Shown: positions 9,965-24,709 of the stretch, piece after piece
Numbering within the stretch: the first letter of the stretch is position 1
Layout of the letters: the number at the start of each line of letters is the position of its first letter
Assembly: GCA_023664775.1 (NCBI GenBank)
Contig: JAMPEW010000032.1
Coordinates: 1 to 33,651 of the forward strand
Source of the DNA: Clostridium sp.
GTDB lineage: Bacteria > Bacillota > Clostridia > Lachnospirales > Lachnospiraceae
Direction of reading: 5' to 3'
DNA: 33,651 bases
Made by a program: the position numbers and the translations under genes
Notes under the pieces: model-generated
What the model was told of the DNA's origin: nothing
The model's input: the letters and a program-made list of their open reading frames with translations, nothing else
The model's database searches: none

Positions 9965-11173
9965 ATGCCGGATTCAAGCAAACTAATTAATGTACCTGTA
10001 GGAAAGCTGGGTATCATCCCTCTGCAAAGCTGCAAAGCCTTAGGTGAAAAGGTTGACAGCTACATCGCAAAATGGAGAGCCCAACGGCACAACGAGCACA
10101 AGGATAATCTTACATTTACAGGATATGAAAAAGACTCCTATATTTTAAAGTCTGCCTGCCCGCGTTTCGGTTCAGGCGAAGCCAAGGGCACGCTATCTGA
10201 ATCAGTCCGTGGAACGGATCTTTACCTTTTGGTGGATGTTGTAAACCACAATATCGAATATTCCATCTGCGGCAAAAAAAATATGATGTCGCCTGACGAC
10301 CATTATTCTGATTTGAAGCGTATTATTGCGGCTATCGGCGGCAAATCAAACAGGATAACGGTTATTATGCCGTTTTTATATGAGAGCAGACAGCACAAAA
10401 GAAACAACAGGGAATCCTTAGATTGTGCAATCGCACTTCAGGAGCTTGTGGGAATGGGCGTTGACAATATCATTACATTTGATGCCCACGACCCAAGAGT
10501 GCAAAACGCCATTCCGAGAAGCGGCTTTGAAAATATTATGCCGACTTACCAGTTTATCAAGACGCTGCTCTTATCCACCCCTGACCTCAAGCTTGACAGC
10601 GACCATATGATGGTTATAAGTCCTGATGAGGGCGCCATGAACAGGGCAATTTATTTTGCAAACCATCTTGGCGTTGATGTGGGAATGTTTTATAAGAGGC
10701 GTGATTACACCACGATTGTAAACGGCAAGAATCCAATTGTGGCACATGAATTTCTTGGTGATTCCGTTGACGGCAAGGACGTGATTATCGTAGATGATAT
10801 GATTGCCTCCGGCGAAAGCATGCTTGATGTCGCAAGGGAGCTTAAACGCCGCAAGGCAAGACGTGTTTATGCGCTTGCAACCTTCGGATTATTTACAAAT
10901 GGTTTAGAGGTATTTGATGACTGTCATAAAGAGGGCATCATTGAGAAGGTAATTACCACAAACCTGACCTATCAAATGCCTGAGCTTTTTGAAAGATCAT
11001 GGTATGGCTCTGCCGACCTCAGCAAATATATTGCAACGCTGATTGACCACCTGAACCATAACGCTTCCATCAGTGGTCTGCTTGACCAGTCTGAGCGTAT
11101 TCAGGCACGTATTCAGGAATACAAGGAATGCGGAACCATTACACCGAATTATAAGGCACCAGAGCTTGACTAA
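9965..11173 (+). CDS. prs: Ribose-phosphate pyrophosphokinase (long form)
   Basis: A 402-residue PRPP synthetase, making PRPP from ribose 5-phosphate and ATP for nucleotide, His, Trp and NAD synthesis. Recognisable parts are MPFLYESRQHKR, FDAHDPRVQN near residue 168, the loop SPDEGAMNRA, and the PRPP-binding VIIVDDMIASGESM near 274-287. It is about 85 residues longer than standard bacterial enzymes, with extra sequence at the N-terminus (before residue 90) and a longer C-terminal tail. The ATG follows TGGAGG. It starts 17 bases after the helicase-loader gene and ends at a strong terminator, so it may be the last gene of that operon. Confidence 0.92.
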   Translation: MPDSSKLINVPVGKLGIIPLQSCKALGEKVDSYIAKWRAQRHNEHKDNLTFTGYEKDSYILKSACPRFGSGEAKGTLSESVRGTDLYLLVDVVNHNIEYSICGKKNMMSPDDHYSDLKRIIAAIGGKSNRITVIMPFLYESRQHKRNNRESLDCAIALQELVGMGVDNIITFDAHDPRVQNAIPRSGFENIMPTYQFIKTLLLSTPDLKLDSDHMMVISPDEGAMNRAIYFANHLGVDVGMFYKRRDYTTIVNGKNPIVAHEFLGDSVDGKDVIIVDDMIASGESMLDVARELKRRKARRVYALATFGLFTNGLEVFDDCHKEGIIEKVITTNLTYQMPELFERSWYGSADLSKYIATLIDHLNHNASISGLLDQSERIQARIQEYKECGTITPNYKAPELD

Positions 11174-11175
11174 AT

Positions 11176-11207
11176 AAAAAGGGGCTGTCACAGCCCCTTT
11201 TTATTTT
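11176..11207. terminator. Bidirectional terminator between prs and the YhaN-like gene
   Basis: AAAAAGGGGCTG-TCA-CAGCCCCTTTTT is a perfect 12-bp stem with A-runs on one side and T-runs on the other. It can therefore end prs on the plus strand and the convergent minus-strand gene. Confidence 0.9.
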
Positions 11208-12895
11208 TACATGGTAATGTATTCGTATTCAATTCCTGCATCATCAAGCTGCTGCTTTGCCCCCTGATTAGCTGTTAGAAGTATGACCTGCTCCGCACCG
11301 ACCTTTCCCATGCAGCGTATCAGATTTGATGCAAAGCTTTCGTTCCCCGTAAACCAATCTTCAACTACAATAGGCATGTTATCCTTGTTCAGCAGCTTTG
11401 CCGCCGAAAGCTTCATTGACATATATACCATTTTAAGGTCATCATAGGAGAGGGTGTCAATGCCGTTATAGCTTCCATCTTTGCCGACTGCTACCCGTCC
11501 ACTTATCTCAAAACGCACATCATCATATCTGCCGTTTGTAAGAGGCGCTATAAAATCGCCCGATGCCGTAAACAGATTTTTCATTTCCCCCTGTATATTT
11601 GTTGACAGCTCATTCACTGTATTGATTGCGAAATTAATTGCATGAAGCTCCTTCTGCATTTTCTGAAGCTCAGCCTCCACAATGCCAAGCTCATCGAGAA
11701 GCTCCTGCTTTCTCCTTTTATCCTCAAGCAAATCATGCTCCTCTGCCTTGAGATCCACCTTCTTTTCTATAAATTCCTCGGCAAAGGACATGTCTATTTT
11801 AACTTCATCCTCCTCCGCCTTCTTTTGCTCAAGCTCCTGTATGACCCGCTTAAAGTCCTCCTCCGAAGGCGTTGTGACATCACCGTCAAATACGCCCTTG
11901 GCATACAAACCCTCCACTATCGTTATGATTACAAATAATATCGTACAGACAACAAAGAGCTGTCTTACGCCCTTCTCAAACGGAAGAATATATACCATAG
12001 CCGTTATCACGGCAATGACAAATAAGCCGGTAAGCAAAATAAACCATAGCTTATCCGTTATTTTTTCCTCCTTGCTTTCGCTGTCTTCCTCCTCGTCTGT
12101 AAATGTACTGTTCTTTGTAAGTGCATCAAGATTATCACTTAAAGCGTCGTCCTCCTCATAGGTTACGCCCTTGTCCGTTTCAATCAGCTTTCTCGCTTCT
12201 CGCTTTCTCTTGGCAGTTTCCATTGCAAATTCTTCTTCGACTTCCTTTATTTCCTCTCTTACTGCCTTTAGCTTATCCTCCACGCCGTCATATCGTCCGA
12301 TTTGCTCACGTATGCCCTCAGTCTCACGCTCCAGCGACCTTGTATCATACTTTCTTTTTTCATCCTTCAAGGCTTCAACAATTTCTGTCTTATTAATGTC
12401 TGCCGAACCACACAACGTCATGTTGCCTGCATATTCCATCAGCTCGTTTGACAGTGTCCTTGCATTCTCTGCCTTCGGCTTTGAAATACATAGGCTGCCT
12501 GCATATGTGTTTCTGTCCGTATCAAAAAAAGTCTCACGGAGATTATTGCTATGCTTCAGCATAAGCTCTCTGCCTGTTTTTATGTCAAGCACATTTACCT
12601 TATCGCCCCGCTTTTGAAAATCACGCTCGATAAAATATGAACTTTCATCCTTTTTTACATATACCCTGCCCGAAGCATTTTTACCACTGACTGACTTTAG
12701 GCGCTCATAATTATCATCATTTTTCTCAATGCCCTTGAAACGGTTTATCCCGTAAAACATACCAACGACAAATTCCTTAAGACTAAACCGCTTTGCCTCA
12801 CTGTCCACACAGATAAGATTGATGCCTGCCTTAAGGTCTATTTCACTGTTATTAAATTTTCCAAAATCCTTAAGTGATAGCTTATTAAGATACAT
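11207..12895 (-). CDS. Rad50/YhaN-like protein with degenerate ATPase motifs and two membrane segments
   Basis: A 562-residue protein built like YhaN/SbcC. The N-terminal ABC half has the fold cues MYLNKLSLKDFGKF and, after a gap, YFIERDF. Coiled coil follows at about 185-235, two hydrophobic segments at about 280-335 (LWFILLTGLFVIAVITAMVY and LFVVCTILFVIITIV), more coiled coil to about 430, and a C-terminal ABC half. The Walker A site, normally GxNEAGKST, reads VDSEAKRFS: the glycines and catalytic Lys are gone. The signature LSxG reads LSYDD and Walker B reads VVEDWF. ATP hydrolysis is therefore unlikely. The start directly follows the stop of the phosphoesterase gene (TAAATG). Probable scaffold partner of that protein, likely membrane-attached. 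Confidence 0.8.
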   Translation of the reverse strand: MYLNKLSLKDFGKFNNSEIDLKAGINLICVDSEAKRFSLKEFVVGMFYGINRFKGIEKNDDNYERLKSVSGKNASGRVYVKKDESSYFIERDFQKRGDKVNVLDIKTGRELMLKHSNNLRETFFDTDRNTYAGSLCISKPKAENARTLSNELMEYAGNMTLCGSADINKTEIVEALKDEKRKYDTRSLERETEGIREQIGRYDGVEDKLKAVREEIKEVEEEFAMETAKRKREARKLIETDKGVTYEEDDALSDNLDALTKNSTFTDEEEDSESKEEKITDKLWFILLTGLFVIAVITAMVYILPFEKGVRQLFVVCTILFVIITIVEGLYAKGVFDGDVTTPSEEDFKRVIQELEQKKAEEDEVKIDMSFAEEFIEKKVDLKAEEHDLLEDKRRKQELLDELGIVEAELQKMQKELHAINFAINTVNELSTNIQGEMKNLFTASGDFIAPLTNGRYDDVRFEISGRVAVGKDGSYNGIDTLSYDDLKMVYMSMKLSAAKLLNKDNMPIVVEDWFTGNESFASNLIRCMGKVGAEQVILLTANQGAKQQLDDAGIEYEYITM

Positions 12896-13963
12896 TTATC
12901 TGTCTCCAACTCCCAGCAGCGCACCAATTCCATATTCAAGTGCCTTTTGTCTTATTTCCTCAGCTTCTTCGCTTTCCTCGTCCTTCATCCTGCTCATAAA
13001 TCTTCCCAAAAGGTTATTCTCATTGCCATGATACAGCTCGTCCACATTGTAATCATACTCTGTTCTGTCAATAACCTCATTTATGTTATACCTTCTGACA
13101 ATTCCACTCAAATTAATTTCAAGGCTGCTGTCAATCGTTCCCTTGAGCAGTATTCTGTATATATTTTCTTTTCCACGATTTTTTATCTCGGCTTCCACAA
13201 TGTCCAAAATGTCAGCATTTGTACTGTCAGGCTGAAGCTCAAGCGTCATGTTTATATAGCTTCTCTTATTGCTTGCCACCCATGAAATCGTTGTATTTTT
13301 TTCCTCGTCAACCTCTCCGTAAATGTAGCCCCTGCGTCCCGTATCCGTGTAATCAAGAGGCTCAAGACAGCCAGGAAATGCCATTTTATTTTTAAGGATA
13401 TGGGTCGGCTTTCGGATGTAGCCAAGGGCAATATAATCAAAGCCTGTTTTTGCAAGCCTGTCCTTTGAAAACGGCATATGATTTTTGTCTCCACCATGTC
13501 CGAGGAGAATGTTATATGCACCCTCCCTGCCCGGCTTTAATTTCTCAAGTATTTTAGATGTGTACTCAGGCTTTCCGTAGCTGTAGCCTGTAATACATAC
13601 ATTTATATCCTCAAAATATACATTTGCAGCCTTATCCCTCGGCATAATCAGCGTGTTTGAATTAAAATCATACTGCTCCCAGACCGAGTCCTCCCCGATA
13701 TAATCACAGGAACCTGCTATGATGACGGTTTTCGTCACTGAAAGCCTGTTCAGCTGCAAATCAAGATTTTTAAGCTCCTGCAGGGTTGGTGATGCATGAA
13801 AAAGGTTGCCTGAAATAAGAAGCAGCTCCACCTTTTTTTCCTCGCAGAGCTTTACAATATTTTTAAAGCTGTCCCATAATTCATCTGCTCTCTCATCACT
13901 CCATATTTTTGTCCTGTCAGGCTTCATGCCTAAGTGAACGTCAGATATGTGTATAAATTTCAT
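12896..13963 (-). CDS. Mre11/SbcD-like metallophosphoesterase with lost metal ligands
   Basis: A 355-residue protein of the calcineurin-like SbcD/Mre11/YhaO family, whose active members are DNA nucleases. Motif I is intact (ISDVHLG, D8 and H10). The other metal-binding motifs are changed: GDLF reads GNLF (N53), GNHD reads GSCD (84-87), and GHxH reads GYIR (181-184). Only His156 (LLGHGG) of the remaining ligands is kept. The fold is recognisable over its length, so the frame is under selection, yet two-metal nuclease chemistry looks impossible. It is the first gene of a two-gene operon with the Rad50/YhaN-like gene, with GAGGTG 8 bases before the ATG and a promoter at 14043-14071. Confidence 0.82.
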   Translation of the reverse strand: MKFIHISDVHLGMKPDRTKIWSDERADELWDSFKNIVKLCEEKKVELLLISGNLFHASPTLQELKNLDLQLNRLSVTKTVIIAGSCDYIGEDSVWEQYDFNSNTLIMPRDKAANVYFEDINVCITGYSYGKPEYTSKILEKLKPGREGAYNILLGHGGDKNHMPFSKDRLAKTGFDYIALGYIRKPTHILKNKMAFPGCLEPLDYTDTGRRGYIYGEVDEEKNTTISWVASNKRSYINMTLELQPDSTNADILDIVEAEIKNRGKENIYRILLKGTIDSSLEINLSGIVRRYNINEVIDRTEYDYNVDELYHGNENNLLGRFMSRMKDEESEEAEEIRQKALEYGIGALLGVGDR

Positions 13964-14042: not shown

Positions 14043-14071
14043 ATTATAATACGAAATGGAAAAATGTGCAA
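14043..14071 (-). promoter_or_regulatory. Promoter of the phosphoesterase/YhaN-like operon
   Basis: Minus strand TTGCAC, 17-base spacer, TATAAT. The -35 begins only 5 bases beyond the end of the DUF3783 gene. The pair can thus be expressed apart from the B12 operon, although no terminator separates them and read-through is possible. Confidence 0.7.
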
Positions 14072-14075
14072 TTAT

Positions 14076-14453
14076 TTAGCCCTGTCTTTTTTGCATGGCT
14101 TCCCTTTCCCTTGCAAGCTCCTCATACAAATCAAGTATCGTCCAATTTATATTATGGCTTGTTGCAACCGCCTTAAAGCCCACGGACGGTATGCCTAAAT
14201 TTTTGAAGGTATCAAGTATACCGTCAAGCTCGCTGCCGCTCATGCCTGCAAGCAGCATCACAGGCTCGGCAAGGTCACCTTCCCCGTATTGTTCCCCTGT
14301 GCCCTCATGCCCCGGTATGCCCATATGATTTCCGATTGTCTGCAAAAATCTTTTTTTCGGTATTTTTTTGCACTCTATTTCGCATGCAAGACATATATCT
14401 GAAATTTTTTTGTGAATGTCATTCGGATAGCTATAAAGAAGTATCTTTTTCAT
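14076..14453 (-). CDS. DUF3783-type small protein
   Basis: A 125-residue protein beginning MKKILLYSYPND. The middle holds LLAGMSGSELDGILDTF and the segment GIPSVGFKAVATSHNINWT, which match my recollection of the DUF3783 family (unknown function, common in Clostridia). It has no signal peptide or membrane segment, so it should be cytosolic. Its start overlaps the end of the Cys-rich gene by 23 bases, which ties it to the cobalamin-riboswitch operon as the last gene. A role in handling imported corrinoid is possible but is only inferred from context. Confidence 0.7.
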   Translation of the reverse strand: MKKILLYSYPNDIHKKISDICLACEIECKKIPKKRFLQTIGNHMGIPGHEGTGEQYGEGDLAEPVMLLAGMSGSELDGILDTFKNLGIPSVGFKAVATSHNINWTILDLYEELAREREAMQKRQG

Positions 14454-14688
14454 GCAGATTTTTCCTTTCTAAAACTGCCTCATAGTTTTCTGCCCTGTGG
14501 GGAAAGGTGCAGCTTGTGCATTCCTTTATTTTTCTGCCGTTTACAGTTATGTACTTAGGATTTCCGGGACATTCTTCCATATCATATAACGGACAGAAGC
14601 AGAACAGACAGTTTATATGATTTATTCCCTCATGGCATGGATAATAGTTGCAGTCCCTATTTTCAAAATATTTATAGGAGTTTTGCAT
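14431..14688 (-). CDS. Cys-rich small (probably metal-binding) protein
   Basis: An 85-residue protein with conserved Cys pairs: RDCNYYPCH, NCLFCFCPLY, MEECPG and ECTSCTFPH. This is the pattern of the cysteine-rich small domain family (Pfam PF04071 in my recollection), a probable metal-binding module often found with cobalamin genes. The frame is open to 14730, but the ATG at 14688 lies 9 bases after GGAGG and begins MQNSYKYFENRDC, so that start was chosen. It overlaps the second ECF T gene by 17 bases and the DUF3783 gene by 23 bases, so it is part of the B12 operon. Its exact job is unknown. Confidence 0.75.
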   Translation of the reverse strand: MQNSYKYFENRDCNYYPCHEGINHINCLFCFCPLYDMEECPGNPKYITVNGRKIKECTSCTFPHRAENYEAVLERKNLHEKDTSL

Positions 14689-15574
14689 GAGCATCTTCCT
14701 CCCTGTGCGTTTTCTCATATTTAATTGCATTCACGATTTCTACTCCCATCGGCAGAAGCAGGAAGCAGGCATATGACAGATAAAACAGATACGACCAACC
14801 CTTAGGTTTATACATTATGATTTCAGGGTCATACAATATCGTTGTCTGATTGAGCATCACTGCCATAAGCGTAAGGGTTATGCCTATAAAAAGCATTATC
14901 ACAAGGCTTCTGTCCCTGTTATCAAAGCGGTATATGGAAAAGGATGTCCTATGCTTTAACGTATACCCCCTGCATTTCATTGACATAGAGCTTTCCATGT
15001 AATCCTCCAATGTCCATGTAATAACGATTGACAGTATGCGCAGTCTGTTTCTTATGCCGCCTATTATTGTGCCTTGTCCTTTTCCCATTCCAATTCCTTT
15101 TCTCGACATCGCTACAGCCGCATTTCTTTCCCTTATGCGTGAAAAGCTCCTGAGAAATATGGAAATGAAAAGTGAGAGTCTTGGGAACAGCCTGCCTGCA
15201 AGGTATATTACCTTATCGGTGGAAAAAACTGCAAGCAGACAAATAAAATTCATAATAAATGCCGCTATTGTCATTCCACGCACCAGCCCATAAAAAAGTG
15301 CCTCCGCCGTAATATTATTCCCTATAAAATTTTTTCTTATGTTTGTTATTCCAAAATGATTGTAATAAGAATACCACAAACAGTAAAGTACAACAAATAA
15401 AACTAATATAAAATTAAATACCAGCTCCCGCTTTCCATTTAATTTTATCGAATAGGCAAAGGAGGATAAAAAAGCGATGACAACATAAACAGGGTGATTA
15501 AAACAAAGTATAAATGTCATGGAAAATAAAAAATATATGAAATTAATACCCGGATGATAATTTTCAAATTTCAT
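14672..15574 (-). CDS. ecfT: ECF transporter transmembrane T component (second copy)
   Basis: A 300-residue membrane protein of the EcfT/CbiQ family, which couples the ATPases to the substrate-binding S subunit. Several hydrophobic helices precede two cytoplasmic coupling motifs of the X-Arg-X type, MSRKGI and MKCRGY (the usual Ala-Arg-Gly positions). C-terminal membrane segments end near LSYACFLLLPMG. SD GAGGAA lies before the ATG, 27 bases after the S gene. This is the second T protein of the operon, while only one fused ATPase and one S gene are present. It may pair with the other T, serve a different S subunit, or be a specialised paralogue. Confidence 0.85.
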   Translation of the reverse strand: MKFENYHPGINFIYFLFSMTFILCFNHPVYVVIAFLSSFAYSIKLNGKRELVFNFILVLFVVLYCLWYSYYNHFGITNIRKNFIGNNITAEALFYGLVRGMTIAAFIMNFICLLAVFSTDKVIYLAGRLFPRLSLFISIFLRSFSRIRERNAAVAMSRKGIGMGKGQGTIIGGIRNRLRILSIVITWTLEDYMESSMSMKCRGYTLKHRTSFSIYRFDNRDRSLVIMLFIGITLTLMAVMLNQTTILYDPEIIMYKPKGWSYLFYLSYACFLLLPMGVEIVNAIKYEKTHREEDAHAKLL

Positions 15575-15601
15575 GCAGATTCCTCATAAAAGATTACGAC
15601 A

Positions 15602-16303
15602 TCACGAAATGTCATATTTAACTTTAATTCTGTTTATTCTCTCCATAAACGGCTTGCACAAAAGAAGCAGCGTCATTGCGACAGCCACGCCATGTACGGC
15701 ATTTACAGACAGCCCCGATAAATAGATAGACCATGGCGTCATATCTCCCATCATTCCGTCCATCAGGAAAAAGGTTGATGTGTCTAACAGCGGTCCAACG
15801 ATAAGCACGATAAGTAAAAAGCCGAGCAGGGCAGTTACAAGCCTCTTATTTTCATTTATTATTTTTTTCTCGTACAGGATGCCTGCTATAAACCCTGCCA
15901 TTCCAAAGGCGAACATCTGCCACGGCGTCCACGCTCCCTGTCCAAAGGTGAGATCGCTTACAAAAGCAGACAACATTCCTGAAATAAATCCTGCTGTCGG
16001 ACCAAATGCCATTCCTGTTATCATAATAATTGCCGCCATGGGCTTAAAGTGTGGAACAAAAGAAAAAGCCATTCTCGATGCAACGGCAGCCGCACTCATA
16101 ACTGACACAAGGACGATCTCTGCCGCCTGTGGTTTTTTCCCTTCAAAGCCAAAAATAAACGGCATCATTCCACCGATAATAAGCAGGGTTGCAAATAAAT
16201 AAGACCGTCCATTGCCAAGCTTCCAAAAGACAAGCAGCAGCAAAATTGAAAATAACAGCATAACGATATATCCAACCCATCTTTTTACAGATTTTCCCTG
16301 CAT
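15602..16303 (-). CDS. ECF transporter S component, predicted cobalamin-specific
   Basis: A 233-residue integral membrane protein with about six helices. It contains the ECF S-subunit hallmarks: SAAAVASRMAFSFVPHFKP, then the Gly-rich ITGMAFGPTAGFISGMLSAF, and GQGAWTPWQMFAFG. S subunits bind the vitamin and decide specificity. Here specificity for cobalamin (CblT/CbrT-like) is inferred from the cobalamin riboswitch and the transcobalamin-like surface protein in the same operon, not from binding residues. The gene overlaps the ATPase gene by 19 bases, so S and A are translationally coupled. Confidence 0.85.
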   Translation of the reverse strand: MQGKSVKRWVGYIVMLLFSILLLLVFWKLGNGRSYLFATLLIIGGMMPFIFGFEGKKPQAAEIVLVSVMSAAAVASRMAFSFVPHFKPMAAIIMITGMAFGPTAGFISGMLSAFVSDLTFGQGAWTPWQMFAFGMAGFIAGILYEKKIINENKRLVTALLGFLLIVLIVGPLLDTSTFFLMDGMMGDMTPWSIYLSGLSVNAVHGVAVAMTLLLLCKPFMERINRIKVKYDIS

Positions 16304-17937
16304 AATGTTATCACGTCCTCCTCAGTTACAGCATTTGCAAATATGTGTCTGCTCATGCGGTTTGCCGATGTTGTATAAAAGCTGTTGCCCGAAAAAAACT
16401 TCCTTGCCGTATTTGTCGTTATCACTCCACCGTCAAAAAACATGCTCACGTAATCAGCATATTTTGCACAAAATTCTATGTCATGCGAAACCATCAATAT
16501 TGTAAGGCTCTCAAGCTCCCTCAAAATTCCCACAAGGCTCTGCTTAAAATAATTATCCATGCCCTTTGTGGGCTCATCCATAAGCAGTATTGACGGCTTT
16601 GTCAAAAGAACCTTTGCAAGTGCTGTCCTTTGCTGTTCGCCGCCTGATATATCGTATGGGTGTTTATCCAAAAGAGGACGAATCAGACATTTTTTTGCCA
16701 TAGCGTCCACTTCCTGTTCCGCCTCTCTGCCATGAACCATCTCCAGCAGCTCCTCCCTGACCGTTTTTTTCACGAACAGACTTTGCGGGTCCTGCGGCAG
16801 CATTGCCAAATGTCCCTGAAAAAGCTCGCCTTTTTTATATTTATCAAGCTTTTTTCCATCTATGATGACCGTTCCACTGTAGGGCTTTAATATTCCGCAT
16901 ATTGATTTTAAAAAGGTTGACTTTCCCGTACCGTTTCCACCTACAATGGCATAAAAGCTCCCCTTTGGCACAGAAATGGAAGCACCCTTCAGGACATCCG
17001 CCCCCTCCTTACTGTATCTGTACCACAGCTCCTTTGTCTTAATTGCAGGTTTTTCAGGCTCATCAGGTAAATCAGACTCATCAAGCCTGTCCCTTTTTAA
17101 AGCTTTGCCCGCAAGCTCCTTTGTAAGCCAGCTTCTTCCCTCTCTCACGGTAAGGGGACAGGCTGCCCTGCTGCCCACTCCGTAATATATCTGCATCGGT
17201 GCAGGCAGTGCCACAGCCATATCACTGTTTTCCTTTTTCAGCATGTCTCCCACAAGCCTTGGCGTGTCGCACGCAATAATCCTCCCCTCCTCCATGACAG
17301 CAACCCTGTCTGAGGCAGGAAACACCTCCTCAAGCCGATGCTCCGACATGATTATGGTGGTGCCAAGCTCAAGATTAATTTTCTTTATCGTCTGCAAAAA
17401 GTCCGATGCCGCAATGGGGTCAAGCTGTGATGTCGGCTCATCACATATGAGTGCCTTAGGCTGCATCGCCATAATGGAGGCAAGATTCAGAAGCTGCTTC
17501 TGCCCCCCTGAAAGCTCGTTTACATCTTTATAAAACCAGTCCTGTATTCCAAAATAGCTTGCCATTTCAGCCACCTTGAGCCTGATGGTCCTCGTGTCGT
17601 ACCCAAGGCTTTCAAGTCCAAAGGCAAGCTCATGCCATACCTTGTCCGTCACAATCTGATTATCAGGATTTTGCATGACATATCCTATTTGTGCCGCCTG
17701 CGTTCTCAAATCCAACGCCTCCACAGGCGTTTCCTCAAACAGCACCGTCCCTGATTTCTTTCCCTTAGGCGTGATAGGGGGCTTTAAATGTTTCAACAGT
17801 GTTGTTTTCCCGCTTCCGCTTTTTCCACATATTGTTATATATTCCCCCTGCTCAACCGTAAGATTAATATCAGTTAAAGCCTCACGCTCCCTGACAGGAT
17901 AGCAAAAGGTCAAATCCTTGATTTCAAATAGTGCCAT
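16285..17937 (-). CDS. ecfA: ECF transporter ATPase, two fused ATP-binding domains
   Basis: A 550-residue protein carrying both EcfA-type ATPase domains in one chain. Domain 1 has Walker A GKSGSGKTT (38-46), signature LSGGQKQ near 138 and Walker B ICDEPTSQLD near 163. Domain 2 has GGNGTGKST near 330, ISGGEQQ near 427 and LLMDEPTKGMD near 449. All catalytic motifs are intact in both halves. Most ECF systems use two separate A genes; fused forms are also common in clostridia. It powers import with the S and T subunits at the inner membrane face. It overlaps the first T gene by 28 bases and the S gene by 19 bases. Confidence 0.94.
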   Translation of the reverse strand: MALFEIKDLTFCYPVREREALTDINLTVEQGEYITICGKSGSGKTTLLKHLKPPITPKGKKSGTVLFEETPVEALDLRTQAAQIGYVMQNPDNQIVTDKVWHELAFGLESLGYDTRTIRLKVAEMASYFGIQDWFYKDVNELSGGQKQLLNLASIMAMQPKALICDEPTSQLDPIAASDFLQTIKKINLELGTTIIMSEHRLEEVFPASDRVAVMEEGRIIACDTPRLVGDMLKKENSDMAVALPAPMQIYYGVGSRAACPLTVREGRSWLTKELAGKALKRDRLDESDLPDEPEKPAIKTKELWYRYSKEGADVLKGASISVPKGSFYAIVGGNGTGKSTFLKSICGILKPYSGTVIIDGKKLDKYKKGELFQGHLAMLPQDPQSLFVKKTVREELLEMVHGREAEQEVDAMAKKCLIRPLLDKHPYDISGGEQQRTALAKVLLTKPSILLMDEPTKGMDNYFKQSLVGILRELESLTILMVSHDIEFCAKYADYVSMFFDGGVITTNTARKFFSGNSFYTTSANRMSRHIFANAVTEEDVITLCRENL

Positions 17938-18791
17938 TTTACTGCCTCCGTAACATTTATCACAATCGGTGTTGCAAAATATAATACCATAGCCGCAAGC
18001 CCCATGACAAAATAATCATTATCCATGCCGCTTATATTGATGCAGGGCAGAAATACAGCCTCAAGCCCCTTTTTCGCCTTACAAAACATGATACATAAAA
18101 TTAGTATAATTATCCACAGCATGAAAAGAACATCCCCTGCTTTCAATGAATATACCGAAAAGCGGCTCCGTTTCCCACAGCCATGCCCCCTGCATTTCAT
18201 ACTGTCCGCAGTGACAATTCCCTCCTCAAGCGACCACGAAAGCATTGCCAGCATAACATTTGCAGCCTCAACAGTTCTATTTTCACCGTCACATGACACC
18301 GCCTTCCTTGCAGAAGATATACTTTTCATATGAGTTCTGTAATAAGGCAAAAGCCGAAGTATCATGGAAAGAGCAAGTCCCACTGCCGGCACAAGCCCTC
18401 CAAATATATATAACAGCTTATCAGCCGTCATTACCTTATGATAAAAGAAAAACCATAAAATGACGGAAATAAACATAGCTGCAAGCACTATACCGTAGTA
18501 TAGTGCCTCCAGCGTAAATACACGTCCTCCAAAATAAGTAAACAATATCGTCTCTCCCCTTGTATTAAATACGGGGTTCGCCAGCGCAAGCAAAACATAG
18601 ATTGGAAGCATAGCACCAATAACCTTCCATGCTTCCCTGCCATGTGCATTGATATAACATATGGCAGCCATAACAAGGGAAAGCAAAGCAGCCACAGGAT
18701 GTATGGCAAGCATACTGATTATGATTGCCCCTGCAAAATACATAAAGCTAACGATGGGATTGTAAGCTGCAAATTTCTTTTCTCTACTCAT
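17910..18791 (-). CDS. ecfT: ECF transporter transmembrane T component (first copy)
   Basis: A 293-residue EcfT/CbiQ-family membrane protein. Hydrophobic helices occupy the first 140 residues. Coupling motifs follow (SSARKAV and MKCRGHGCGKRS), then C-terminal membrane segments (DVLFMLWIIILILCIMFC and a final helix around MGLAAMVLYFATPIVI). Its start overlaps the end of the large surface-protein gene by 8 bases, and its end overlaps the ATPase gene by 28 bases, so expression is tightly coupled. Residues around the MKCRG motif match those of the second T protein, suggesting an old duplication within this operon type. Confidence 0.88.
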   Translation of the reverse strand: MSREKKFAAYNPIVSFMYFAGAIIISMLAIHPVAALLSLVMAAICYINAHGREAWKVIGAMLPIYVLLALANPVFNTRGETILFTYFGGRVFTLEALYYGIVLAAMFISVILWFFFYHKVMTADKLLYIFGGLVPAVGLALSMILRLLPYYRTHMKSISSARKAVSCDGENRTVEAANVMLAMLSWSLEEGIVTADSMKCRGHGCGKRSRFSVYSLKAGDVLFMLWIIILILCIMFCKAKKGLEAVFLPCINISGMDNDYFVMGLAAMVLYFATPIVINVTEAVKWHYLKSRI

Positions 18792-21700
18792 TTTCCGACT
18801 TTTTTCTTTTTATGATAACCACTATAAGTCCAGCCATTGAAAGTGCTCCTATGGCAATCAAAATCCATATCATTCCATTTTCAGTGTTGGAAGCCGCTCC
18901 ATTTATAAGCTGTTCATAATCAGCATTCGTACCTATCACAGTGTAATTCGCATTTTCATATGCCGTAAATGTAAGATAGCCGTCTATCTCATCACATTTT
19001 ATTATGGCAGCCTCCGTTTCCTTACTTGCAGAAGGCACTGGAACGGTGGAAAGTGCCATAACATTACATTTCATGGCTGTTTCCCCACTATCAGCATGAC
19101 ATACAACAAATGCATTGGCATACCCCTGCATATCAGGCTTCGGTATGCGGACCGTAACGCCGTCAGCAAAATCATAGTCTTCATCCGTTATCAAATCCGT
19201 AATGCTTATGTTGTATGAACAAAGCTCCTGCATATCCTTATTTGGCATTTGATTCAGCCTGTCAATCACAGAATTGTCCAATGCCCTCTCATATACATTT
19301 AACTTATAATACCACTGAAGCCCGTCAATATCAATGCCGGATGACGCATCTCTATGGTTTATCGTTCCAATTGCTTCAAATACCTGTTGCAAATCCTCAT
19401 AGTTTTCTACCTCTGCCTGTTCTGCCTCCGTCAACATACTGTATTCGTTATAAAGCGCTATCGCCGTATCCATTTCCTCAGCAGTGATTTCTTCTACTTC
19501 TCCCTGCACAATTCTCTTTAACTCCTTGCCCAAGCTGTCCACTGCTCTATTTGTAAATTGTACTGCCCTGCTTTCAGAGTTTGCCCCACTGACAGCAGCA
19601 TCAGTCTTTTGTACGTTTTCTTCTATTTTATTTTCCGGCTTATTATCTGACTTACTATCAGCCTTTACAAGATTGCCGCCTATGGTAATTCCTCCTGGTC
19701 TTTTTACGTTGGAACCTCCTGCACCTTCCGAAGGCACCTTGTCCTCTGCCTTAGGCAAATCCTCAACAGGTTTTTCTTCCTCTGTTATAGGGGGCTGTTC
19801 CTCTGTCGGACTTTTTTCTTCCGTTGTCGGCAAATCCTCCTCTGGGTTTTTCTCCTCTGCTGTAGGAGGCGTTGGTACGGAAGGTTTATTTTTTTCCTCC
19901 TCCTTCAGTCTGTCATACTCTTTTCTTGCCGCCTGCAAAATATCGTAAGCCTTAACAAGCTCTTTCTCAGCAGCCGTAAGCTTCTCATATGCTTCCTCAG
20001 CCTCAATAATTGCAGCTTCACTTTCAAGCGTCACGCTTCCAATTGCACTGATAAGTGCATCCATGTCGCCGGCATTTTTTTCTGCCCTAAGCGTTTCAAA
20101 TATCTGTCTTGCATTGACAAGCGTACTATAATTTGTAATCTTTGCTTTTTCTTCCTCATCAAGCTTCTCATATGCTTCCTCTGCCTTAACAATTGCAGCT
20201 TCACTTTCAAGATTTACATCCCCTAAATTTATAATTTTGTTGATTACCTTAACGTAGGCGAGCACACCCACTGCCATAACGTTTGCACTGTCATTTTTAT
20301 AGTAAAGCGTTCCGTCCTTGTCACATATGATGCTCGTGATACAATACTGCTCATACCCCTTGGCATCATAAAGCTCAACAAGCTCCGCCTCATCTGCCGT
20401 GGTTGCCTCCGGTTTTACCTTTATCATGGATATTCCACCAGGCGTGTTGTTGTATGAGGAATAAAGATAGATATATCCCGTTGCCTGCTCATATGCTGTT
20501 GAAAGAAGCAGCGAGCACTGTGGATAACCCTTTAATCCTACGGCATAATACATTTCAAGCGTCTCTGCATCTGCAACGACTACATTTCCACTGGAGCCTG
20601 TTGAGGATATTCCGCTTCCGGTTGCAAAATAAACCTTTCCCTTATATACAATCGGCGTACTTGTGCTTTGTGCATTATAATTAACATGCTTAAGCTGTGA
20701 CAAAACTCCCGACGCATCTACCTTGGCACTGCACAAATGTCCACCCTTTGTCGTAAAATATACCCTTCCCGTGGCACTGTCATATGCCATCGAGGACCTT
20801 TGATCCCCCATGCCTTCAAGAACAAGCCTTGACACAATCTCCCCTGTTTCTTTTTTAAAGGAATACAGGCTTGCGTTTCCACTTGTTCCACTTGTGCCGT
20901 CATCAGTTCCAACTATAACATAGTCCCCTACAGCCACAGAGCCAGCCCAGTAAAAGCCGCCTGCCTGCGTATGCTTCCATGTTGCAAGCTTATCTTCATT
21001 TCCCCTTGTCGTGTCCTCATCCGTTACACTGATACATACATAGTTGGCATCCCTTGTCTCGCTATTCCAAAAGCCTGTATAGATATATCCGTCAGTATAT
21101 GTAATCGGAGATAACGATTGTCCTCCTAATCCATCTTTGTAAATCCAAAGCGAGTCAAGCGTCTTTGCATCAAACGCCTGTATTACTCCACCTGTTAGCG
21201 GACAAAATATCATTCCGTTTGCATATGCAGGAGGCGTATATCCCCAATTAGGCGCTGCCGCCATCGCTGTCTGGGCAAGTATCTCTCCCGTCTTTAAATC
21301 AAGCTTATATAGATTTGCTCCTGCCATAACAATCAGAGCATCATCCACAATTATCTGTACGCTTGGAGCGTTTCCCCAACCACTGCCCAGCTTTTTAGCC
21401 CACAAAAGCTCTGTTTCTTCAGCATTGATAGGCGTTTCTGCATCGGTAATGCCCATATTGACATCGCTGTCCCTAAAGTTCTTCCATTGGGTTTCCACCT
21501 CCTGTGGCTGATTTTCAGACGCCTTATCCAATGTGACATTGATTTCTCCACCAGTCGCAGGAACATCCCCTGATACACCAATGTAACCTGTTTTAGTAAC
21601 GGTATAGGAATAGTCCCCAGTGGAGAACAATCCCTCATAGCCGCCGTCTGTTTTCTTGAGTGGACGTCCGTTTTTATCATATACTATGACAACTGCATCC

Positions 21701-22749
21701 TCCGGTATGGTATTTACCTTGAGGATGGTCGATTTCTTTTTATCAATATGAACCGTATATATGTTTTCAAGCTTATCGGCTCCCTCTCCCACAGATACCT
21801 TAACAAGCACGTTGTCAACCCCCTGCATTGCAACAGCAGATGAGGAAGCGTCATTGTAGGTTACCGTGTAATTATCCTTTCTCGGTACAGCCTGAACTGT
21901 TACGCTATCTGCACCTTCAGGAATGGTAAGGGTATACTCAAAGGCATTATGCGAAAAGGTTTTATCCGTAAACTGCTCATACTCCCCCGTATCAAATGTA
22001 AGTCCCGTCAACGTAGGTATCACATTCAAATGGAACGTATAAGTAACCGCAGCTTTCCCTGTCCCTGAAGCCTCAATCGTAAATGTATTTTTTCCAGCCA
22101 AAACACATGGCGCATATATTTGCGTCTCTGAAGTTGCTTTCACATTTTTTGTTTCCTTCTTCTGTCCATCGCCATAGTAAATCGTTATTGTGTCATAGCC
22201 CGTATACGGCGTCACCTTAAAATAAAGGTTCGGATAATTATCATTTATGGAGCCAAGATTATATTCCTTTACTTCGGTAGAAAACACATTTTTTGTCTCA
22301 TATGTATTGGTTTCATTTCTAAGTATTACGCTTGCCGAGCTCGGTGAAAATTGCGTGCATATGATAAGAGATGCAAGTCCCTCCTCACTTACCGCAACTG
22401 CATTCACCGCTTCATTCGCACTTACATCTGCGACTTCCATTGTTGTCTTGACTGCATTTACAGCTTCGGTTTCCGTTGTTGCTTTGTCTGTATTTGCATC
22501 TGTGATTTCCGTCGTTGTTTTATCTGCATTTGCATCTACGGTTTCTGTTGTTATTTTATCTGTACTTGCAGCTATAGTTTCCGTTGTTATTTTATCTGCA
22601 TTTGCATCTGTCGGGGTACCTTCGCTTACCTCGTATATACTGTCTGACGGTTCTGCCGCATTTACATTGAACGGCATAAATGCAAGCGCCATACAGATTG
22701 CCAAAAAGGCGGCTATCACTCTCTTACCTTGTTTTTTGTATGCTGTCAT
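18784..22749 (-). CDS. Large surface protein: cadherin-like, PEGA and PQQ-like beta-propeller domains
   Basis: A 1321-residue exported protein. A signal peptide ends near residue 32 (FMPFNVNAA). Residues 49-120 are six degenerate 12-residue Thr-rich repeats. Two cadherin-like beta-sandwich domains span about 124-335, and a PEGA-like domain about 340-408 (LKVNTIPEDAVVIVYDKNG). A PQQ-type beta-propeller spans about 420-800, with blades such as LYKLDLKTGEILA and IQAFDAKTLDSLWIY. Two helical repeats at about 840-950 share EAEEAYEKL, with a third near 1093. A Pro/Glu-rich spacer lies at about 953-1016. A C-terminal helix (1293-1314) followed by KRKK anchors it in the membrane; there is no LPxTG. 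GGAGGAG precedes the ATG. Its riboswitch operon suggests corrinoid capture or release outside the cell. Confidence 0.85.
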   Translation of the reverse strand: MTAYKKQGKRVIAAFLAICMALAFMPFNVNAAEPSDSIYEVSEGTPTDANADKITTETIAASTDKITTETVDANADKTTTEITDANTDKATTETEAVNAVKTTMEVADVSANEAVNAVAVSEEGLASLIICTQFSPSSASVILRNETNTYETKNVFSTEVKEYNLGSINDNYPNLYFKVTPYTGYDTITIYYGDGQKKETKNVKATSETQIYAPCVLAGKNTFTIEASGTGKAAVTYTFHLNVIPTLTGLTFDTGEYEQFTDKTFSHNAFEYTLTIPEGADSVTVQAVPRKDNYTVTYNDASSSAVAMQGVDNVLVKVSVGEGADKLENIYTVHIDKKKSTILKVNTIPEDAVVIVYDKNGRPLKKTDGGYEGLFSTGDYSYTVTKTGYIGVSGDVPATGGEINVTLDKASENQPQEVETQWKNFRDSDVNMGITDAETPINAEETELLWAKKLGSGWGNAPSVQIIVDDALIVMAGANLYKLDLKTGEILAQTAMAAAPNWGYTPPAYANGMIFCPLTGGVIQAFDAKTLDSLWIYKDGLGGQSLSPITYTDGYIYTGFWNSETRDANYVCISVTDEDTTRGNEDKLATWKHTQAGGFYWAGSVAVGDYVIVGTDDGTSGTSGNASLYSFKKETGEIVSRLVLEGMGDQRSSMAYDSATGRVYFTTKGGHLCSAKVDASGVLSQLKHVNYNAQSTSTPIVYKGKVYFATGSGISSTGSSGNVVVADAETLEMYYAVGLKGYPQCSLLLSTAYEQATGYIYLYSSYNNTPGGISMIKVKPEATTADEAELVELYDAKGYEQYCITSIICDKDGTLYYKNDSANVMAVGVLAYVKVINKIINLGDVNLESEAAIVKAEEAYEKLDEEEKAKITNYSTLVNARQIFETLRAEKNAGDMDALISAIGSVTLESEAAIIEAEEAYEKLTAAEKELVKAYDILQAARKEYDRLKEEEKNKPSVPTPPTAEEKNPEEDLPTTEEKSPTEEQPPITEEEKPVEDLPKAEDKVPSEGAGGSNVKRPGGITIGGNLVKADSKSDNKPENKIEENVQKTDAAVSGANSESRAVQFTNRAVDSLGKELKRIVQGEVEEITAEEMDTAIALYNEYSMLTEAEQAEVENYEDLQQVFEAIGTINHRDASSGIDIDGLQWYYKLNVYERALDNSVIDRLNQMPNKDMQELCSYNISITDLITDEDYDFADGVTVRIPKPDMQGYANAFVVCHADSGETAMKCNVMALSTVPVPSASKETEAAIIKCDEIDGYLTFTAYENANYTVIGTNADYEQLINGAASNTENGMIWILIAIGALSMAGLIVVIIKRKKSENE
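22390..22605 (-). repeat. Six tandem 36-bp units in the surface-protein gene
   Basis: In-frame 36-bp repeats encode 12-residue units of the form ANADKITTETID, becoming more divergent toward the C-terminal side. They probably form a stalk after the signal peptide, and copy number may vary between strains. Confidence 0.75.
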
Positions 22750-22763
22750 TATTTTCTCCTCCT

Positions 22764-24269
22764 TTAATATACGCTTCCGCCAACATCTTCTCCAAGTCCT
22801 TTACAGGTGTAGCACCAAACCATAGTATCTCCATCAGCCATCACATAAGAGCTGCAGCCATAATTTGGAAACCAGCCATTTACCTTATACATCCAGCCTG
22901 ACTGACTTCCACAGTCAAACTCGTATAAATAATTGATACCCTCAATATAATAACTGCCGTAAAGGGGTGTATAAGAATATTCTATCTGTAACCCGTAATA
23001 GGAGCATACTCTTTTCAGCACGTCAAATGCCGTTTCGCCCTCCGTAAATTCTACTGTGGCAGTTCCCAATATAATTCCACTTTCAGGCACATATGCTTCC
23101 TTTCCCGGTTTCAAATCCTCAAGATTGTTTAATATGGTATCACACCTAATCTGCACTGTGCAGGTCATGACCTTTGGCTCTGCCTCCTCAGTAGTGGAAG
23201 GCGACTCTGTTACCTTACTTTCCTCAGTAACCGTCTGTGGCTTTTTCCCACCTCCAGCACTCTCCTCCTGTGGTTTTTTTCCACCTTCAGCAACTGCTGT
23301 CTGTGGTTTCTTTCCATTTTCTGCCTCTGTGGTATTTCCCTTTCCATCATTGTCAGATATGCCATGGTCCGTTTTATTTCCCTGAACGGTACTATTTTCA
23401 GCAGTTCCTCCACTTTCCGTCTCATTTAAGGCATCGCCACTTTCCGTATACGTTACGTCCGTCTGCGTATAATCCTGTATATATGCGTTCTCATTTTGCT
23501 GTGCTATACCATTGTCTTTTTCCCCGGAAGCATTTGCGTCCAAATAAACGATGTTCCCACTTCCATTTTGAAGCTCCTGTATCTCGCTCTGCCTTTCTGC
23601 GGCAAGTGCTTCAAATTCCACCTTTGTAAAACACAGCTCCTTGCTTTCACTAAGCTTTGATAAGAATGACAAATAAAATCCGTTTAAAGAGCTTATGCTT
23701 ATGTCGCCGGAATAAGTTTCTTCAGCCATAATGCACAGAAATGCTCCCGATAATATTTTCTCGTTCTGCTCTCCTGTGCTCACGGTTACTTCATCCGAAA
23801 ATACGCTTACAGTTATCGTTCCCGTCTGTGCACTTATGGAAAATATCCCTCTGTCACAGGTTATTATTGCATTTTCTGTACTGATTTGTGCGGGAATGTC
23901 ATTTTCTCCAAGGCATACAAGCATATCACCCGATATAAGCTGAATATCCATCAGCTCGCCATCAATTTTACTCACAGCCGCTGCTGAATTTTCCCCTAAT
24001 ATGTATTCTCCGCCAAAGCTTACTCTTGCTCCATTTCTTGTCGTTATTACATTTCCTTCCGTAATTTTCGACTTTTCATCTAAGGTGTATATAATGTCAT
24101 TTTTCTCAATGCTCACCACACCATAGACTTCGTTTACATCTATGCTGTTCTCCTTATGACCCACATATCCCTTTGTAACAGCAACTATCATTGCGCCGCA
24201 AAAGGCTATGACTACAATGAAAAGAACCATCAGAGCATTGTACAGCGTTTTCTTTTTCTTATTTTCCAA
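22764..24269 (-). CDS. Membrane-anchored surface protein with FecR-like and DUF4430 (transcobalamin-like) domains
   Basis: A 501-residue protein and the first gene after the cobalamin riboswitch. A basic start (MENKKKKTLYN) and one membrane helix to about residue 32 anchor it facing outward. Residues about 42-165 resemble a FecR beta domain (VITTRNGARVSFGG, then ENAIITCDRGIFSISAQTG). A charged linker carries three GKKPQ repeats. Residues 369-501 are a DUF4430 domain, related to the C-terminal part of transcobalamin. Its cues are YYIEGINYLYEFDCG, SGWMYKVNGWFPNYG and DTMVWCYTCKGLG, with several paired Cys. Human transcobalamin uses this fold to cover bound B12, so corrinoid binding is plausible. 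The start is TTG after AAGGAGGG. Fourteen bases separate it from the next gene. Confidence 0.88.
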   Translation of the reverse strand: MENKKKKTLYNALMVLFIVVIAFCGAMIVAVTKGYVGHKENSIDVNEVYGVVSIEKNDIIYTLDEKSKITEGNVITTRNGARVSFGGEYILGENSAAAVSKIDGELMDIQLISGDMLVCLGENDIPAQISTENAIITCDRGIFSISAQTGTITVSVFSDEVTVSTGEQNEKILSGAFLCIMAEETYSGDISISSLNGFYLSFLSKLSESKELCFTKVEFEALAAERQSEIQELQNGSGNIVYLDANASGEKDNGIAQQNENAYIQDYTQTDVTYTESGDALNETESGGTAENSTVQGNKTDHGISDNDGKGNTTEAENGKKPQTAVAEGGKKPQEESAGGGKKPQTVTEESKVTESPSTTEEAEPKVMTCTVQIRCDTILNNLEDLKPGKEAYVPESGIILGTATVEFTEGETAFDVLKRVCSYYGLQIEYSYTPLYGSYYIEGINYLYEFDCGSQSGWMYKVNGWFPNYGCSSYVMADGDTMVWCYTCKGLGEDVGGSVY

Positions 24270-24508
24270 TATGTAGTCTCCCTCCTTGTGTACAATTACA
24301 ACATCTTCGATGCTGTAGTTCGAAGCTTAGCAGGTTTTAATTCTGCCTATGGTCTGCCGCTCATATCATGTTGTAAAATGCTGAACATACGACTGAACTG
24401 TCAATCTAAAATAAGAAATCAGATATTTTTATGCTTCAACTGTAAAAAAGCGTACAAAAATAAGAAGCACAAAACGCCGCCCTACCTCAGAAGACTTCCG
24501 TTCGTAAT

Positions 24509-24667
24509 AACAATACAGGTCTCCCGACTTAGCCTTTATCCTACTAAGACACCTTCCCAAAGCAAAAGCTATGCTTCAGTGGCTGCAAATTTGCACGTCC
24601 CTTCGTAGGCAACACGGTTGCTGAGACACAGTGCCGGACTTACACCGGCTTCCGAGATGTATTGTTT
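24509..24667 (-). promoter_or_regulatory. Cobalamin (AdoCbl) riboswitch
   Basis: The minus strand carries the class hallmarks. The closing stem is AACAATACA (24659-24667) with TGTATTGTT (24509-24517). Inside it are GCCGGTGTAAGTCCGGCAC, GCCACTG, GGGAAGG and the B12 box AGTCGGGAGACCTG. It precedes the eight-gene B12 uptake operon, with about 240 bases of leader before the first gene. I could not define the terminator or anti-terminator of the expression platform with confidence. Confidence 0.95.
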
Positions 24668-24680
24668 TGCCTATCATTAT

Positions 24681-24709
24681 CTTATAACATATATTTTCCA
24701 ATTTGACAA
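24681..24709 (-). promoter_or_regulatory. Promoter of the B12 uptake operon
   Basis: Minus strand TTGTCA, 17-base spacer, TATAAG, ending 14 bases before the riboswitch closing stem. This is the expected place for its transcription start. Confidence 0.65.

Follow-up and report, generated by a model that had tools for sequence, protein, structure and literature searches.

Mre11-Rad50 is an ATP-driven nuclease in which motor and blade are coupled. What is such a pair kept for when both partners have lost most of their catalytic residues? This question is raised by two adjacent genes on contig JAMPEW010000032.1 of a Clostridium sp. (genome G000), within a stretch of 33,651 nucleotides which was analysed at its full length and is called the window in the following. 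One gene codes for a Mre11/SbcD-like phosphoesterase, designated D1, and the other for a Rad50/YhaN-like partner, designated R1; together they are referred to as pair 1. Both genes are under purifying selection and have orthologues with intact motifs in the same genus, and alteration of D1 goes along with the presence of a second, motif-intact pair (pair 2). An explanation to which we give about an even chance is that the window pair is a membrane-tethered complex whose enzymatic role has passed to pair 2, so that a selected non-enzymatic scaffold was left.

Motif state and predicted architecture of pair 1

D1 contains a calcineurin-like phosphoesterase domain (Metallophos, 33.5 bits, cut-off 21.5). 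On its own, the protein gave weak matches to the Mre11 and SbcD models, and a profile of the aligned D-like family gave Mre11 as the best match among solved structures (6e-26). Judged by the Metallophos match and the family profile, D1 has the Mre11-type phosphoesterase fold. The nearest named records are from Lachnospiraceae, mostly metagenome assemblies. The positions of the motifs were assigned via an intact orthologue (G014), both proteins of which can be aligned to solved Mre11 and Rad50. At the two-metal site and the catalytic histidine, three of eight positions are kept in D1 (D8, H10 and H156); the substitutions are D53N (GNLF), N85S and H86C (GSCD), and H182Y and H184R (GYIR).

For R1, no Pfam match above any cut-off was obtained and the match to Rad50 was weak; here, the profile of the aligned R-like family gave Rad50 as the best solved-structure match (1.8e-23). 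Two of the eight positions of Walker A, ABC signature and Walker B are kept, S483 and D513. Walker A reads VDSEAKRFS (N32S, G35K, K36R, S/T37F), the signature LSYDD (G485D) and Walker B VVEDWF (D512E). An earlier note on this DNA, made from the sequence alone, had described the altered motifs of both proteins and the three retained residues of D1 in the same way.

The AlphaFold model of R1 (mean predicted local distance difference test score 79.9, predicted template modelling score 0.62) has a Rad50-like head and a coiled coil. The best Foldseek matches of the model were the Rad50 structures 3auy and 3av0 with E values of about 4e-11 (3.6e-11 for the first); the superposition on the first match was modest, with a template modelling (TM) score of 0.40 by query and 0.58 by target. 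The helices 283-303 and 308-332 of the model are hydrophobic, so that the two membrane helices proposed earlier are backed by hydrophobicity and by the predicted structure, and a membrane anchor of R1 is supported by prediction. Of 89 R-like proteins, 88 have at least one hydrophobic segment, and in 20 of them there is only one. A zinc hook motif CxxC is absent from R1 of the window; six of the 89 R-like proteins have CxxC anywhere in the chain and 83 have none.

How far the loss is confined to the active sites was judged at positions with an invariance of 95% or more among 56 intact D-like proteins. The 31 dead D proteins keep 0.93 of the 34 non-catalytic and 0.50 of the eight catalytic positions; since "dead" was defined as six of eight catalytic positions or fewer, this contrast, and with it the apparent specificity of the D1 loss for the active site, is partly true by definition. 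For the R-like proteins the same comparison was less sharp (0.65 of 24 non-catalytic and 0.41 of six catalytic positions), which suggests that the R-like protein has drifted more widely.

Selection, intact orthologues and the number of losses

D1 and R1 lie head to tail on the minus strand, and the stop codon TAA of D1 directly precedes the ATG of R1; both frames are full length and coupled, as had been noted earlier. In the genus, 36 of 37 genomes contain an R1 homologue, but that of G033 lies at another locus, so that the pair itself is present in 35 of 37 genomes, G031 and G033 being without it. The Rad50-like gene adjoins its Mre11-like partner, coupled or nearly so, wherever both share one contig.

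Within the own clade of the window pair (four genomes, synonymous divergence dS 0.17-0.61), the ratio of nonsynonymous to synonymous substitution rates (dN/dS) was 0.014-0.040 for D1 and 0.064-0.093 for R1. The corresponding values for two intact clades were 0.036-0.088 for D1 and 0.039 and 0.051 for R1, the latter from two pairs only since all others were saturated. The three closest genomes carry all altered residues of the window pair at dS values up to 0.61; together with the low dN/dS, this makes the motif losses more than chance. Between G000 and G020, D1 is 99.7% identical (dN/dS 0.014) and R1 95.6%, and five other comparable neighbours are 90.8-98.5% identical. In comparison with G003 and G004, D1 (96.1 and 96.6%) is second to the phosphoribosyl pyrophosphate (PRPP) synthetase of the locus (97.0 and 97.3%). 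The claim that both subunits were altered together without random decay is thus borne out by the open, coupled frames, the presence in 35 of 37 genomes and dN/dS values far below 1; a ratio near 1, which would have spoken for decay, was not seen. Recent decay is ruled out by the same frames and ratios. A slow decay toward pseudogenes would agree with the graded loss across lineages and with R1 evolving faster than D1 in the own clade; against it stand the frames, the low ratios and the high identity of D1 between G000 and G020 and in the comparison with G003 and G004, and we regard it as very unlikely.

Intact motifs in close homologues of sister strains were named in the earlier note as a sign of recent decay. 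The outcome is divided: the three closest genomes are degenerate, and other species of the genus have intact motifs. A fully intact D1 was identified in 11 of the 35 genus genomes, and the R1 motifs are intact in all 11 (in G016, R1 was read in two pieces). The convergent neighbourhood with PRPP synthetase is common to intact pairs (G005, G007, G008, G014, G018, G023) and degenerate pairs (G000, G003, G004, G022, G029), and was also identified outside the genus. Orthologues of both forms thus stand, in several species, at the same locus.

The states of the two subunits are coupled. In the genus, 33 complete pairs were scored: 10 have two intact subunits, 23 have two degenerate ones, and none is mixed. 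G016 and G024, in which R is split at contig ends, are outside this count, and their D state was used in the comparison with pair 2. Outside the genus, 60 of 116 carriers of pair 1 were fetched, and the motif table leaves out G138 (longer D frame), G087 and G041 (R not directly behind D) and G101 (contig end). The remaining 56 pairs comprise 43 intact in both subunits, four altered in both, six altered in D only (G080, G104, G109, G125, G153 and G212, the last by one residue) and three imperfect in R only (two single changes, and G091 with R split in two frames). For all 89 scored pairs, both subunits have eight of eight positions in 53 and fewer in 27, with D alone altered in six and R alone imperfect in three. 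R proteins with six positions or fewer stand beside a D with fewer than eight in 27 of 28 cases, the exception being the truncated G091. As a low-scoring R is nearly always found beside an altered D, the nuclease site seems to be lost before the ATPase site.

Several lineages outside the genus, at loci L138 (G104), L137 (G153), L146 (G128), L141 (G125), L156 (G109) and L148 (G080), have an altered nuclease site and a largely or fully intact Rad50-like ATPase; they are possible intermediates. At L135 (G138), a Mre11-like protein of the pair-1 type is encoded in a frame of 647-658 amino acids without a Rad50-like gene directly behind it, possibly a fusion or rearrangement.

Different lineages lost different residues in D and R, and the loss is graded across lineages. 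This bears on the idea of a rewired enzyme, in which the altered residues would form a new active or ligand-binding site. Such an enzyme would account for the retention of D8, H10 and H156 in the own clade, for the fixation of the replacements in four of four genomes and for the conservative change at D53, which, where lost, is asparagine throughout the motif table (14 of 14 rows). The loss of different residues is unlike one new chemistry, D53 is replaced by glutamine in G214 (outside the table), and the partner has likewise lost Walker A, signature and Walker B; we consider a rewired enzyme distinctly improbable.

In an rpoB tree of 43 genomes and an rpoB+rpoC tree of 33 genomes, the degenerate G076 is sister to the intact G106, and G196 lies outside both. 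With regain excluded, this gives at least three separated joint losses, namely in the genus, in G196 and in G076.

A second pair and the role of the altered one

G003 contains a further Mre11-like gene, designated D2 (370 amino acids, all motifs intact), beside a Rad50-like gene, R2 (696 amino acids, motifs intact, with a hydrophobic stretch in the middle of the protein as read by eye). D1 and D2 share only about 25% identity and are well separated on the tree; the tree of pair 2 itself is poorly resolved, also with regard to an arrival by transfer. In a search of 80 genomes, matches with E values below 1e-30 were counted as pair 2, since weaker ones hit pair 1 or a third family. The resulting comparison covers 75 of the 80 genomes, leaving out G031 and G033 (no pair 1) and G041, G138 and G087 (unscored), and predates the identification of G214. 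Of the 41 genomes in which D1 is intact, none had pair 2, as compared with 23 of the 34 in which D1 is altered (Fisher test, relatedness ignored, 2.4e-11). D2 is intact in 23 of 23 readable cases and the Walker A of R2 in 24 of 24; where R2 was followed to its C-terminus (17 proteins), the signature and Walker B also look unaltered.

In the family, the two pairs are nearly mutually exclusive. Among 250 genomes, pair 1 (E <= 1e-40) was identified in 118 and pair 2 (E <= 1e-30) in 50, with five shared in place of 23.6 expected (hypergeometric, relatedness ignored, 6e-10); for these and the order counts, the two sets were taken as the same genome draws by their handles. All five co-carriers (G027, G076, G104, G128, G153) have a degenerate D1. 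In the order, 392 genomes with 64 carriers of pair 1 and 49 of pair 2 overlapped in G027 alone and thus provided no new test cases. Therefore, 76 further pair-2 genomes (all 45 pair-2-only genomes of the family and 31 of 38 further carriers of the order) were searched with a D1 profile, together with four controls. One clear new co-carrier was found, G214, in which D1 is without nearly every catalytic residue, the Walker A of R1 is intact and pair 2 is distant (30% identity) with intact motifs. The wrecked D1 of G214 agrees with the rule for D1 that pair 1 is catalytically altered where pair 2 is present. In total, 24 genomes have both pairs, all with altered D1: 19 of the genus, G076, G104, G128, G153 and G214. 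Within the limits of the family and profile searches, 44 of the 50 carriers of pair 2 in the family are without pair 1.

Seven of the 50 pair-2 carriers are distant, with 27-34% identity (G075, G078, G079, G115, G118, G146, G214). In four of them (G075, G078, G118, G146; loci L340-L344), a single-copy Mre11-like protein has scores between pair 1 and pair 2, and the frame that follows starts like a Rad50-type ATPase. These proteins may belong to neither pair, and by such scores the two families are not sharply delimited in every case.

That all 24 two-pair genomes have an altered D1 (G022 by one residue) and that pair 2 is motif-intact wherever it was read would also be expected of a pseudo-enzyme regulator, a dead pair that would modulate pair 2 by binding either to it or to its DNA substrate, a common function of inactive paralogues. 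However, the dead pair is kept without pair 2 in G021 and G035, both rated 100% complete, in which pair 2 was not found, and with only a relic of it in G020. There, D2 is left as two fragments with the middle missing (L368, G020:C80) next to the flanking gene of pair 2 known from G003, and no R2 was found in the 9 kb around the relic. Together with the strong constraint on D1 between G000 and G020 and the low identity of D1 and D2, this makes a regulator rather unlikely. In the window genome itself, pair 2 was not found, and the flanking gene known from G003, G004 and G020 was likewise not found. The constraint on D1 in G000 and G020 points to a role without need of pair 2, unless the loss of pair 2 is very recent in both.

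Besides a membrane DNA tether, a function connected with canonical SbcCD was proposed in the earlier note, either as its inhibitor or as its sensor. An intact SbcCD is indeed encoded on another contig of the window genome. However, SbcD does not track the loss: it was found above the family cut-off in six of 24 genus genomes with a degenerate pair and in six of 11 with an intact pair, and in G020, also rated 100% complete, as in G021 and G035, no SbcD-family match at E <= 0.001 was obtained besides the pair itself. A link of SbcCD to the loss in pair 1 was therefore rejected for want of an association across the genus, and the inhibitor or sensor has become hardly credible.

A third Mre11-like family was also rejected as the compensating factor, being present in 12 of 24 degenerate and seven of 11 intact genomes without association. 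Its frames of 537-638 amino acids, each with a D1-like match, occur in 19 of 37 genus genomes. At L098:6129-7913 (G012), one chain, as read by eye, combines a coiled-coil-like stretch at the C-terminus with two hydrophobic stretches; this locus is without a Rad50-like neighbour, and GEAD replaces GNHD.

In the explanation that we prefer, the window pair would be the local orthologue of a Mre11-Rad50-like complex which Lachnospiraceae encode on the chromosome and tether to the membrane. A short Rad50 would carry the phosphoesterase on its heads in the cytoplasm and have, at the tip of the coiled coil, a transmembrane hairpin and not a zinc hook. The ancestral complex would have had two roles, one as an ATP-gated nuclease and one structural, by which something, most probably DNA, was kept at the membrane. 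A co-resident intact pair 2 would have made the enzymatic role of pair 1 redundant; the nuclease site would then have been lost first and often the ATPase site afterwards, with the structural role keeping both proteins under purifying selection. With pair 2 supplying the chemistry, pair 1 would be either absent or kept as a scaffold, and in the window clade the end state would be a non-enzymatic scaffold that outlived pair 2. We read the architecture common to intact and dead forms as that of a membrane-tethered complex with a structural role which probably never needed catalysis. The wider claim, that a two-subunit machine was repeatedly made into a selected pseudo-complex, first at the nuclease and then at the ATPase site, once an active paralogous pair had taken the chemistry, is put forward tentatively, with somewhat less than an even chance.

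Several points weigh against this explanation. Both p values for the association ignore relatedness; in a tree-aware comparison, four independent pairs were for it, none against and three tied (p 0.125), so that the tree-aware support is suggestive only. Eleven of the 34 genomes with altered D are without pair 2, namely G000, G001, G020 (relic), G021, G035, G165, G196, G080, G109, G125 and G212 (a single substitution); in G000, the absence may be an assembly gap. The D1 of the co-carrier G022 is one residue from intact. The D1-profile search also gave low-scoring matches to part of the protein (E 1e-8 to 1e-12, over about 90-160 residues of the N-terminal part), behind which a very diverged D1 could be hidden. 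R1 has a dN/dS of 0.041-0.115 in the dead clades against 0.039 and 0.051 in two intact pairs, and this somewhat faster evolution indicates some relaxation. The best rpoB+rpoC tree favours several losses within the genus. A single degenerate genus clade is not rejected in the approximately unbiased test (p 0.283 for rpoB, 0.135 for rpoB+rpoC and 0.107 without G022), for which reason only three joint losses are well separated.

The association of pair 2 with the alteration of D1 is new here, and no description of a membrane Mre11-Rad50 or of a dead pair was found in a literature search for which subscription papers were mostly beyond reach. The joint loss under strong selection is a natural experiment that separates the structural from the enzymatic role, with matched intact and dead orthologues supplied by one bacterial genus, and it gives a rule which can be checked in more genomes: where pair 2 is present, pair 1 is catalytically altered. 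If the wider claim is true, the essential ancestral function of the membrane Mre11-Rad50 would be structural, without DNA cutting or an ATP cycle.

The locus and its relation to known systems

The features of the locus are collected in Table 1.

Table 1. Features of the pair-1 locus, in window coordinates
Feature	Position	Strand	Remark
D1, Mre11/SbcD-like putative pseudo-nuclease, 355 amino acids	12896..13963	-	5/8 catalytic positions lost
R1, Rad50/YhaN-like putative pseudo-ATPase, 562 amino acids	11207..12895	-	6/8 ATPase positions lost
Central hydrophobic hairpin of R1, residues 279-331	11903..12061	-	two predicted membrane helices, coiled-coil tip
Promoter-like site upstream of D1, TGCACA-16-TATAAT	14043..14070	-	not above shuffle expectation
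GC-rich hairpin with A and T runs on its flanks, between R1 and the convergent PRPP-synthetase gene	11181..11197		by-eye reading
DUF3783 gene, upstream neighbour	14076..14453	-	near the pair in part of the genus
PRPP synthetase, convergent neighbour	9965..11173	+	indicates the conserved locus in species with intact and with degenerate pairs

The good promoter ascribed to the pair stands as far as one match of 10 in 12 positions is concerned; with eight matches in the region against a shuffle mean of 7.3, it is not distinguished from chance. The GC-rich hairpin was not listed in the scan that gave the promoter-like site; from its letters, it is a probable terminator common to R1 and PRPP synthetase.

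The named neighbours of pair 1 are housekeeping genes. Genes for DnaB_2 (replication initiation and membrane attachment) and a DnaA/IstB-type ATPase lie nearby, convergent and not as operon partners, and prove nothing about DNA tethering. An origin from a defence island or phage was rejected in view of the housekeeping surroundings and of the lack of a strong PADLOC match for the window proteins (none for D1). Six records of a phage collection were matched, the best being an unannotated faecal contig with 35% identity.

In G003 and G004, two further genes lie between the DUF3783 gene and D1 (L063:8716-11371 in G003), one of which resembles a membrane O-acyltransferase as read from its sequence; both are absent at this position in G000 and G020. 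Further away in the window, a cobalamin riboswitch (24497-24709, minus strand, 55.7 bits) is located upstream of a run of genes (14672-24269, minus strand) for a DUF4430 protein, a beta-propeller/cadherin-like protein of 1321 amino acids and parts of an energy-coupling factor (ECF) transporter. The region 14672-24709 resembles an uptake operon under B12 control, with large surface proteins included.

Among known systems, SbcCD/Mre11-Rad50 (archaeal structures 3auz, 3av0, 3qkt) is closest by profile and fold matches and by its adjacent, coupled genes. It differs from pair 1 of the window, which is without catalytic residues in both subunits and has a predicted membrane hairpin in R1 where the zinc hook sits. 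R1 has about half the length of SbcC of its own genome (562 and 1060 amino acids), and D1 scores 26 bits against the SbcD model TIGR00619, below the cut-off of 77.65, as does the intact D1 of G014 with 62.9 bits.

YhaO/YhaN, so named in Bacillus subtilis, is represented by the Pfam family AAA_27 (YhaN). The intact R1 of G014 matches this model with 49.6 bits, and pair 2 has the same gene order and intact motifs, R2 of G003 being itself just under the cut-off of 22 with 20.7 bits. In contrast, R1 of the window reaches 14.7 bits and has lost the motifs, and D1 and D2 stand apart on the tree.

LmuB of the Lamassu system is a Rad50 relative for which a natural E-to-Q change in Walker B is reported (PMC10586767). 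Solved LmuB structures rank third and fifth among the fold matches of R1, and an intact R1 orthologue gives 64 bits with the LmuB model of PADLOC, as compared to only 16 bits for R1 of the window. LmuB differs in having an effector as its partner in defence, whereas pair 1 has a phosphoesterase partner, a predicted membrane hairpin and housekeeping surroundings.

A dead calcineurin-like fold kept as a scaffold is represented by the inactive phosphoesterase-fold B subunits of the eukaryotic replicative DNA polymerases. These have other partners, and in them only the phosphoesterase is dead, whereas in pair 1 it would be joined by a dead ATPase.

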